Of a stretch of 64,000 nucleotides of DNA, positions 40,023 to 43,597 are shown piece after piece. This DNA is from Patescibacteria group bacterium (GTDB lineage Bacteria > Patescibacteriota > Gracilibacteria > UBA1369): contig CAUJCM010000001.1 of NCBI GenBank assembly GCA_963169655.1, forward strand, positions 62,001 to 126,000, in the 5' to 3' direction. The notes below the pieces were generated by a model, which made no database searches, was not told the DNA's origin, and was given only the letters and a program-made list of their open reading frames with translations. Both the position numbers and the translations under genes were made by a program. The first letter of the stretch is position 1. Each line of letters opens with the position of its first letter.

Positions 40023-41969
40023 TTAAGAGTTTGATTCAGACTCTGGTTTTTCTTCAACTATTTCTCCTTCAGTGACATTACTTTCATCAGTATTTGCTGT
40101 TGTGGTGTTATCACTGGTATTTTGATCTTGTTTAACTCTGATATCATCTGTACTTCCATTTGGATTTTGCTGATACATACTTGCTCCGAGTTTTTGAACT
40201 ACCTCAGATAATTCATTTGATGCTGATTCAATTTCAGATTTAGTTGCAGCAGTGTTTTCAAGAACTTTTTTGAGATTATCAATTTTTTCTTGTACAGGAG
40301 TTTTGATGTCATCTCCAATTTTATCACCTGCTTCTTTTAAAGTTTTTTCTGATTGGAATACTAGGCCCTCTGCATGATTTCTTGCTTCAACTAATTCTTT
40401 CTTTTCTTGATCTTCTTTAGCGTGCATTTCAGCTTCTTTCTTCATCTTTTCAATTTCTTCTTCTGAAATATTTGAAGATCCAGTAATTGTTATATTTTGA
40501 ACTTTATTTGTAGCTTTATCAGTTGCTTTTACATTTAAAATACCATTGGCATCAATATCAAAAGTGACTTCAATTTGAGGAACTCCTCTTGGAGCTGGTG
40601 GAAGTCCATCTAAAACAAATTTCCCTAGGGATTTATTGTCGCTGGCAAAGTTTCTTTCTCCTTGTAATACATGGATTTCTACTGCTGGTTGATTATCTGA
40701 TGCTGTTGAAAATATTTGAGATTTGCTAGTTGGGATTGTAGTATTTCTTTCAATTAATTTAGTGCTAATACCACCCATAGTTTCAATTCCAAGAGATAGG
40801 GGAGTGACATCTAATAAGATTACATTTTTTACATCTCCTTGTAAAACTCCTCCTTGAATTGCAGCTCCAAGTGCAACGACTTCATCTGGATTGACTCCAC
40901 GATGAGGTTCTTTCCCAAAAATAACTTTAACTTTTTCTTGAACAGCTGGTGTTCTGGTAGATCCTCCAACTAAGATTATTTCATCTAAATCTGATGCGTT
41001 GATTTTTGCATCTTCTAAGGCTTTTTTACATGGTTCTGCACATCTATTAATTAAATCTGAAACTAAGTCTTCAAATTTAGCTCTAGTAATTTTCATATTT
41101 AAGTGTTTTGGAACTCCAGAAGAGTCCATACCGATAAATGGTTCATTAATTTCAGCTTCGTGTTGAGAAGATAAGGCACATTTTGCTTTTTCTGATGCTG
41201 ATTTAATTCTTTGTAAAGCGATAGGATCTTTTGATAAATCCATACCAGATTCTTTTTTGAATTCTGCAATTACCCAATCCATAATTTTAGCATCAAAATC
41301 ATCTCCTCCTAAATGAGTATCACCATTTGTAGAAAGTACTTCAAAAACTCCATCACCAAGTTCTAAAATTGAAATATCAAAAGTACCACCTCCTAGGTCA
41401 AAAACAGCAATTTTTTTATTTTCTCCCATTTTATCTAATCCATAAGCAAGTGCTGCAGCAGTTGGCTCATTAATAATTCTTTTTACTTCAAGTCCTGCAA
41501 TTTTTCCTGCATCTTTTGTAGCTTGTCTTTGAGAATCGTTGAAGTAAGCTGGAACTGTAATTACAGCTTCAGTTACCGTTTCTCCTAAATAAGCTTCTGC
41601 ATCCGCTTTTAGTTTTGATAAAATCATGGCTGCAATTTCAGCTGGTTTTCTTTGTTTTCCATCTAAAATAATTTCTACTTCGCCTGCATTACCTTTAACT
41701 GTTTCATAAGATACTAATTTTATTTCATCTTGGACTTCATCAAATTGTCTTCCTATGAATCTTTTTGATGAATAAATAGTATTTGCTGGATTGGTAATAG
41801 ATTGAGCTTTTGCAATTGCTCCAACTAATCTTTCTCCATTTTTAATAGCTACAACAGAAGGAGTAGTTCTGGTTCCTTCAGCATTTGCTATAACTACTGG
41901 ATCCGCACCTTCCATGACTGATACGCATGAATTTGTTGTTCCGAGATCTATGCCTATTATTTTTGCCAT
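40023..41969 (-). CDS. dnaK: Chaperone protein DnaK (Hsp70)
   Basis: [49 protein letters not shown]. Confidence 0.98.
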
Positions 41970-41993
41970 AAATAAATATTGTTTAATAATTAA

Positions 41994-42075
41994 TTTTACT
42001 GTGTCAACTGCAAATAATTTTTCTCGCCGTATTATTCATACTGTCTTATAAAAAAATTTTTATTTCCTTGTAAAA
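41994..42075 (-). repeat. Structured element, copy A (dnaK-proximal) of a tandem pair in the dnaK 5' leader
   Basis: 82 nt bounded by TTTTAC/GTAAAA, ~72% identical over 80 aligned nt to the copy exactly 100 nt away. Confidence 0.8.
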
Positions 42076-42093
42076 ATATTGTTGTAAATTTTA

Positions 42094-42175
42094 TTTTACT
42101 TTGTCGGCTACAATTAATTTTTCTCACCGTACTATTCGTACTGTCTCGAAAAATGAATTTTGCCTCCTCGTAAAA
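42094..42175 (-). repeat. Structured element, copy B (promoter-proximal) of a tandem pair in the dnaK 5' leader
   Basis: 82 nt; + strand AATTaATTTTTC..(GTACtattcGTAC)..GAAAAATgAATT imperfect hairpin nested inside GGC/GCC and TTTTAC/GTAAAA pairings; four compensatory changes relative to copy A. Confidence 0.8.
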
Positions 42176-42260
42176 TAAGAATTTCCATTCAATATTTGGT
42201 TTTTGATTACTTTACCTAATATTTACAAGAAAGAAGTTGACTAATTATATAAGAGCATTT

Positions 42261-42285
42261 TAGCACTCGATATTTTAGAGTGCTA
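42261..42285. promoter_or_regulatory. CIRCE operator (HrcA-binding) upstream of dnaK
   Basis: TAGCACTC-gatatttta-GAGTGCTA, matches TTAGCACTC-N9-GAGTGCTAA except the outermost pair. Confidence 0.95.
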
Positions 42286-42300
42286 GAAATTGATTGTCAA
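42272..42300 (-). promoter_or_regulatory. Sigma70-type promoter of dnaK, overlapped by CIRCE
   Basis: Minus strand TTGACA (42300-42295) - 17 bp - TAAAAT (42277-42272); implies ~295-nt dnaK leader. Confidence 0.85.
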
Positions 42301-42304
42301 GATT

Positions 42305-42877
42305 TTATGAATTTTCTTGTTCTTGATTATTTTCGTTTTTTAGTCCATTTCCAACTGTGACTTGAGATCTTCTGATTACTTTACCATGGAATTTATATCC
42401 TTTTTGTAATTCTTTAATGATTTTGTTTTCATCACCATTTTCAGTCATTAAAGCTTCGTGAATTTGTGGATCAAAATTTTGATCTTGTGTGATAATTTCT
42501 TCTAAACCTTTTTCTATCAAAATATCTTTTAACTGTTTGAGAATTGCAAATACACCGTTAGCCCATTCTTTTGCAATATTGTCTTCAGGAATATGATTCA
42601 AGGCTCTATTGATATTATCAAGTACTGGTAATATATCATTAATTAAATTAGAATTAGCAAAAAGCACGAACTGTCCTTTTTCTTCTTCACTTCTTTTCTT
42701 AAAATTTTGTAAATCTGCTAAAGCTTGTTGGCTGATTTTTGTTAATTCATTGATTTTGCCATTAGCTAGATTGAGTTGATTTTGTAGATCTTCAATAGAT
42801 AAGTTTGAATTATTTTGGATGTCGTCACTAATTACTTGTTCGTTATTTTCTGTTGATTGTTCTTGTTGATTTTGCAT
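42305..42877 (-). CDS. grpE: Nucleotide exchange factor GrpE
   Basis: ADLQNFKKRSEEEKGQF...NDILPVLDNINRAL...LQKGYKFHGKVIRRSQVTVGNG. Confidence 0.95.
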   Translation of the reverse strand: MQNQQEQSTENNEQVISDDIQNNSNLSIEDLQNQLNLANGKINELTKISQQALADLQNFKKRSEEEKGQFVLFANSNLINDILPVLDNINRALNHIPEDNIAKEWANGVFAILKQLKDILIEKGLEEIITQDQNFDPQIHEALMTENGDENKIIKELQKGYKFHGKVIRRSQVTVGNGLKNENNQEQENS

Positions 42878-42886
42878 GAAGTTTGT

Positions 42887-43597
42887 TTAAATTAATGATT
42901 TTATTTGTTCAAGTGCTGCCTTGTTAAAGGCGTAATTTGTTCTCGTTGGAGCTAATAAACCAATGATACTATCATGGTTTTTAAACTTTATTTTAGTAAC
43001 TATTAAAGTACAGCTTTGTATTTCTGGTAAGATATTTTCTTTTCCAATATAAAATTTGATTGATTGGTCAATATCTAGATTTTTCAAAATATTAATAAAT
43101 CTGTTATTTTGTTCAAATACTTCAATTACTTGACTGGCTCTATTAGTATCAGAAATAAATTCTGGTTGCCTAATGATATTGGAAAGTCCTATATAAAATG
43201 TTCGAGAGTTATCGGGTACTGTGGCAAAGCTTGCAACATTTGTAATATGAGCTAATAAAGCAACTAAATCATGTATTTTCTGTTTAATTTGATTAAGTTG
43301 CATTTCTTTTTGAGCAAGTTTAATTGCTTTAATTACTTCTTTTTTACTTGCTTCGTAATTGTCTAATTCTTCCACAAAAAGTCTATATCCGAGATCTGTT
43401 GGTACTCTTCCAGCTGAGGTATGAGGTTGATAAATTAATCCTTCTTTTTCAAGAGAAGCCATATCATTTCTAATAGTTGCAGGACTAACTTGGAATTTGT
43501 AGCTCACTAAAATAGTATTAGAACCAACTGGTTCCGCTGTTTCAACGAAATGCTGAACAATGGCTTTTAATACTTCTAAACGACGATCTATATTCAT
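42887..43597 (-). CDS. hrcA: Heat-inducible transcription repressor HrcA (short form lacking the middle domain)
   Basis: EPVGSNTILVSYKFQVSPATIRNDMASLEKEGLIYQPHTSAGRVPTDLGYRLFV; C-terminal FYIGKEN...GLLAPTRTNY. Confidence 0.95.
   Translation of the reverse strand: MNIDRRLEVLKAIVQHFVETAEPVGSNTILVSYKFQVSPATIRNDMASLEKEGLIYQPHTSAGRVPTDLGYRLFVEELDNYEASKKEVIKAIKLAQKEMQLNQIKQKIHDLVALLAHITNVASFATVPDNSRTFYIGLSNIIRQPEFISDTNRASQVIEVFEQNNRFINILKNLDIDQSIKFYIGKENILPEIQSCTLIVTKIKFKNHDSIIGLLAPTRTNYAFNKAALEQIKSLI

Follow-up and report, generated by a model that had tools for sequence, protein, structure and literature searches.

The two palindromic copies in the dnaK leader of this Peregrinibacteria genome (Gracilibacteria in GTDB) very probably belong to a non-autonomous IS5-type MITE of ~125-135 bp, which has a structured core and behaves like the RPE of Rickettsia. 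The element is short (<300 bp), non-coding and repeated, ends in terminal inverted repeats and has both filled and empty sites, as is typical of MITEs. We infer that an IS5-type transposase acting in trans would recognize its ends and move the whole unit, and that insertions would survive at places where one more hairpin is nearly harmless, namely directly beyond stop codons and tRNA ends, in helix 6 of the 16S rRNA, in the P3 loop of RNase P RNA, in 5' leaders, and in protein genes if the reading frame is kept. The dnaK leader measures 15-42 nt in relatives without a copy; one or two such insertions between CIRCE and the ATG would have brought it to ~140-320 nt.

The dnaK leader and its copies

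The source genome (G000), a 1.016-Mb assembly, was covered by DNA and profile searches. Coordinates in the following list refer to the window, i.e., the whole stretch of 64,000 nt that was analyzed.

40023..41969, minus strand: dnaK (Hsp70), 3' of both element copies (ORF; PF00012, E 1e-256)
41994..42075, minus strand: copy A of the palindromic element, the one nearer to dnaK, with a partly decayed stem (covariance model match 41989-42080, 85.2 bits; nhmmer)
42094..42175, minus strand: copy B of the palindromic element, well folded (covariance model match 42089-42180, 99.4 bits; z -5.8)
42260..42286, minus strand: CIRCE operator (17/18 match; script and sequence)
42272..42300, minus strand: sigma70-like promoter TTGACA-17-TAAAAT, overlapping CIRCE (sequence)
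42305..42877, minus strand: grpE-like ORF upstream of the dnaK leader (named from position and sequence alone)
42887..43597, minus strand: hrcA-like ORF (named from position and sequence alone)

The leader spans window positions 41970-42265 and holds two 82-nt copies in a gap-free register of 100 nt. The exact period without indels had been recognized correctly in the original prediction, but the identity given there (about 58/80) was not reproduced; 64/82 positions are identical. The four double substitutions described between the copies do keep Watson-Crick pairing in copy A and copy B alike, the two wobbles are indeed G-U in the dnaK sense only, and the pair 42026/42044 fits the plus strand, as had been pointed out. 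When folded in the dnaK sense and compared with shuffles, copy B reaches z -5.8, and copy A alone stays near background (z -0.5). The predicted promoter is present at 42300-42272, where it overlaps CIRCE, the HrcA site. With CIRCE at 42260-42286 and the TTGACA box at 42300-42272, a long untranslated dnaK leader of ~290 nt, as had been proposed, appears plausible.

Among the relatives, a dnaK scan identified UBA1369, Bin_155, and SJ404 as the nearest named ones; all named relatives are Peregrinibacteria. The dnaK leaders differ in length. The distance from CIRCE to the ATG is 15-42 nt in L093, L094, and L113, which have no copy, 77 nt in L138, where a recognizable 3' remnant (GCAGCTGACAATATAAAAT) is left, 141 nt in UBA1369 (one copy), and ~290 nt and 324 nt in G000 and G007 (two copies each). 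These lengths bear on the earlier suggestion that the copies are a cis-regulatory RNA of dnaK, namely a heat-shock leader element or RNA thermometer selected in place. This would agree with the sense orientation of the copies 3' of CIRCE in the dnaK leaders of G000 (two), G005 (one), and G007 (two), and with the model strand having more G-U pairs than A-C mismatches (68 vs 38). However, ~100 other copies lie elsewhere, most of them on the strand opposite to the neighboring gene (47 vs 8), and much of the fold of copy A is lost. The conservation expected of an RNA thermometer is not seen in the dnaK leaders of close relatives either: SJ404, whose DnaK segment is 85% identical, retains only a 3' remnant and Bin_155 has no copy, while CIRCE is intact. 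An essential role at dnaK is disfavored because the copy has eroded in a close relative, and the thermometer reading as a whole is improbable. The long leader of dnaK is largely a by-product of insertion of the mobile element, although the copies may have a secondary effect on dnaK.

Copies elsewhere in the genome and in other genomes

Specificity for dnaK is not upheld in G000, since five further copies lie outside the dnaK leader, one of them within 16S rRNA and the others in the spacer of the rRNA operon or following tRNA genes. A covariance model built from six G000 copies recovered seven copies in its own genome at E <= 2e-6, the next match having E 2.4. The 16S copy occupies an extended helix 6 loop (C1:298348-298433; L002:1501-1586) of the sole 16S match in the assembly; G004 and G005 have 16S copies at the same place (L220:407 and L206:2491). 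Another copy separates tRNA-Ala from tRNA-Ile in the rRNA spacer, and others are located just beyond tRNA-Val and tRNA-Ala. In two tRNA-linked copies the core is identical and the arms are almost identical although the tRNAs differ, and the arms therefore travel with the core. Together with the empty sites in congeners and the inverted-repeat ends described below, these copies bear out the other option of the original prediction, a small dispersed palindromic element that landed twice.

Homologs were found in 21 of 59 relatives and in 76 of the 359 genomes of the class; in a sample of the phylum, 35 of 384 genomes gave matches (8 within the class, 27 in other classes). The E-values of these searches come from a quick calibration and are rough, with many matches still below 1e-8, and copy numbers per genome are lower bounds where they reach ~12, so that G235, G299, and G300 contain at least 12 copies each. 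The family, which has no name, thus recurs both in Peregrinibacteria and in other classes belonging to the phylum. No Rfam family matches the element at gathering or relaxed thresholds, in line with the earlier statement that no named family fits; a chance miRNA match (E 2.9) lies elsewhere in the leader. Searches of the open-access literature for a described Peregrinibacteria MITE, and of viral contigs for exact copies, found none.

In a quick tree, the nearest neighbor of 50 out of 113 copies is in the same genome, and some copies cluster by site between genomes (16S of G004 and G005; dnaK of G005 with G000). Copies have thus multiplied within genomes and have also been inherited in place. 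An array of at least four copies with near-identical spacing 3' of the 5S rRNA in G001 (L090:1181-1592) suggests tandem amplification. Another carrier, G179, has a transposase-like frame with nine in-frame TGA codons (G179:C3:738-1241; L319). TGA is read as a residue in some Gracilibacteria, and if this applies to G179, lineages that differ in genetic code may share the element.

Structure and covariation of the core

The 92-nt core is a five-helix hairpin with conserved internal loops that is maintained by compensatory change. In an alignment of 112 distinct copies, standard pairs fill 89% of the paired cells, and both partners have changed in 24 of the 26 pairs. The alignment scores 0.615 for covariation; shuffles give 0.210 +/- 0.007 and slid partners no more than 0.147. 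On all measures, it lies above nearly every shuffle and above every slid control. Because the alignment was fitted to the covariance model, the slid control is the fairer of the two. The covariation seen between the two dnaK copies is therefore strong in a larger alignment as well. One mismatch in the core itself covaries, being A.G in 81 copies and C.A in 24, with few exceptions. Such a mismatch and the conserved internal loops are unpredicted by simple palindromy. On the model strand, G-U pairs outnumber A-C mismatches (68 vs 38, p 0.005, with three pairs excluded by choice and, through an indexing slip, an ambiguous apical pair still counted), a weak hint that this is the folding strand.

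The conservation of the core implies a role of the hairpin itself, which most likely lies in transposition or tolerance and not at dnaK. Conservation across a phylum is not expected of MITE cores, and this element's core may therefore have a function of its own. As a tentative reading, to which we assign clearly less than even probability, the core would be no inert filler but a functional nucleic-acid domain that folds on one strand and serves as a recognition target, either of a conserved protein or of the transposition machinery; it would be under phylum-wide selection, with stems and ends freely replaced.

Ends, target duplications, and the link to IS5

Recent copies end in inverted repeats of the GGAACCTCTGAAAA type. 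The 12 near-identical copies read in G235 have abrupt ends at GGAACCTCT.../...AGAGGTTCC, and most of them carry an extra left piece of 45 nt that begins with the same repeat. Exact 4-bp duplications (TTTG, TTGC, CTTC, TACT, ATAT) flank five of the nine intact sites read in this genome; these fall outside the YTAR rule of IS5. In G043, the terminal repeat is GAATCTCTGAAAA, and TTAA flanks the element at some sites.

A candidate source of the transposase is an intact IS5-family IS in the carrier G290 (L314:1021-2189, 1169 bp), which has GGAAGCTCTGAAAAAC ends and a TTAG duplication and whose transposase contains DDE_Tnp_1 (PF01609, E 3e-29) and DUF772 (PF05598). Related ISs occur in G358 (GGAACCTCTGAAAAAC ends, TTAA duplication) and G260 (GGAACCTCTGAAAAAT ends), both with GGAACCTCTGAAAAA ends. 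The terminal repeat GGAANCTCTGAAAA is common to the element and these ISs of the same class; the TTAG and TTAA duplications are the ISs' own. In contrast to the ISs, the element lacks a transposase, and its core is no internal deletion of an IS, an origin that was rejected because the covariance model has no match in the IS loci. The scan for DDE_Tnp_1 covered 26 carriers; the intact IS is in G290, and the domain was not found in G000, G235, or G299. As homologs of the IS occur in nine of the 359 class genomes and only one of these carries the element, the link to the mobilizing enzyme is drawn from the matching ends and not from co-occurrence.

All copies of a contig share one strand in G000 C1, G007:C44, G005:C6, and G050:C3, which possibly follows the direction of replication. 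A strict replication-strand rule fits G000 C1 and several contigs of family f1 but fails in G235 and G267, where strands are mixed within contigs, and was rejected. The shared strand in genomes of the G000 type, the palindromic sequence, and the proximity to gene ends might also indicate a REP-like element that is moved as single-stranded DNA by a Y1 (RAYT) transposase. However, Y1_Tnp (PF01797) was absent from G000, the one genome searched for it, the mixing of strands in G235 and G267 does not fit, and terminal repeats with 4-bp duplications suit a DDE element. Mobilization by a Y1 enzyme is thus highly improbable, and an IS5-type transposase is the preferred candidate.

Filled and empty sites

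Within genus g37, G043 and G056 have the element between purA and yajQ, and G050 has an empty site there. G050 lacks a piece of ~134 bp in which both arms are included, and no hairpin is present at its empty site. Insertion of cores into pre-existing terminator hairpins is thereby rejected at this locus. Six further loci of the genus, out of eight queried, have empty, filled, or internally deleted copies; the sites that are empty, filled, or reduced to remnants in congeners include purA-yajQ, atpE-atpF, pilB, ndk, and frr-rseP. Congeners thus differ at shared sites by the whole unit, both arms included. In purL of G050, the element is inserted in frame (SQKFKIRDNSSKNDVVQGNKELLHEPYDTVRREGSYEVDEVIRIFKTIDFDFALEIGF), and G056 reads SQRFKINEPFKDIDFDFALEIGF there, without the element. 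At the same place, purL of G043 (L231:1519-3897) instead has another short in-frame insert, which may be a hypervariable linker or what is left of a decayed copy. The RNase P RNAs of G006 and G011 contain the element between CCCTTCTTC and GAAGAAGGG, and their terminal helix GCTCTACGGG/CCCGTAGAGC lies outside it (sequence and Rfam).

Many copies adjoin gene ends. Of 55 copies whose 3' side has a gene boundary no more than 22 nt away, 47 have there the 3' end of an opposite-strand gene (p 8e-8), a count in which RNA neighbors were assigned by hand and copies at orthologous sites are not independent. The hosts include tRNA, 5S, tmRNA, RNR, atpE, frr, and ndk. Such positions and hosts would also be compatible with a selected 3'-end element, whose hairpin stabilizes or terminates transcripts and whose distribution reflects selection instead of insertion bias. 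However, copies are present, absent, or deleted within one genus, those read have no consistent terminator-like T-run, and others are found inside 16S, rnpB, and purL. We consider this explanation unlikely as an account of the element; for the gene-end preference as such, insertion bias and selection both fit and cannot be separated.

Comparison with known elements and implications

As summarized in PMC2229807, the RPE of Rickettsia (Ogata 2000, 2002) are palindromes of 105-146 bp that occur between genes and within tmRNA and RNase P RNA, and that also interrupt protein genes without shifting the frame. The element described here likewise adjoins tmRNA, lies within RNase P RNA, and keeps the reading frame of purL. 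It differs from RPE in its phylum, IS5-family-like ends, 4-bp duplications, and insertion into 16S rRNA, and the comparison concerns behavior alone. MITEs such as ERIC, NEMIS/Correia, and RUP are ~100-200 bp long, have inverted-repeat ends and long hairpins, and are often located near gene ends, and the terminal repeats of RUP match an IS family (PMC2229807; PMC10969869). Unlike these, the present element has an elaborate core that is conserved phylum-wide, with compensatory changes and a covarying A.G/C.A mismatch. Insertions in rRNA genes of CPR bacteria are known (PMC5041132). Like 16S intervening sequences, the copy in G000 forms a hairpin in a 16S stem-loop of the assembly's only rRNA operon; here, the insert stems from a dispersed mobile family.

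Probably, then, the element is an IS5-type, RPE-like mobile palindrome whose structured core is unusually conserved. That it was first met as a covarying pair in the dnaK leader is a caution, as covariation in a leader is no proof of a gene-specific regulator. The element explains insertions in 16S rRNA, which are relevant to primer bias, in RNase P RNA, and in a protein. The behavior of RPE is seen again in a phylum unrelated to that of Rickettsia, and here empty sites can be recognized and a transposase can be proposed. Being a structured mobile repeat that a single covariance model finds, the element makes transposition easy to track in very small genomes that are supposed to be streamlined.
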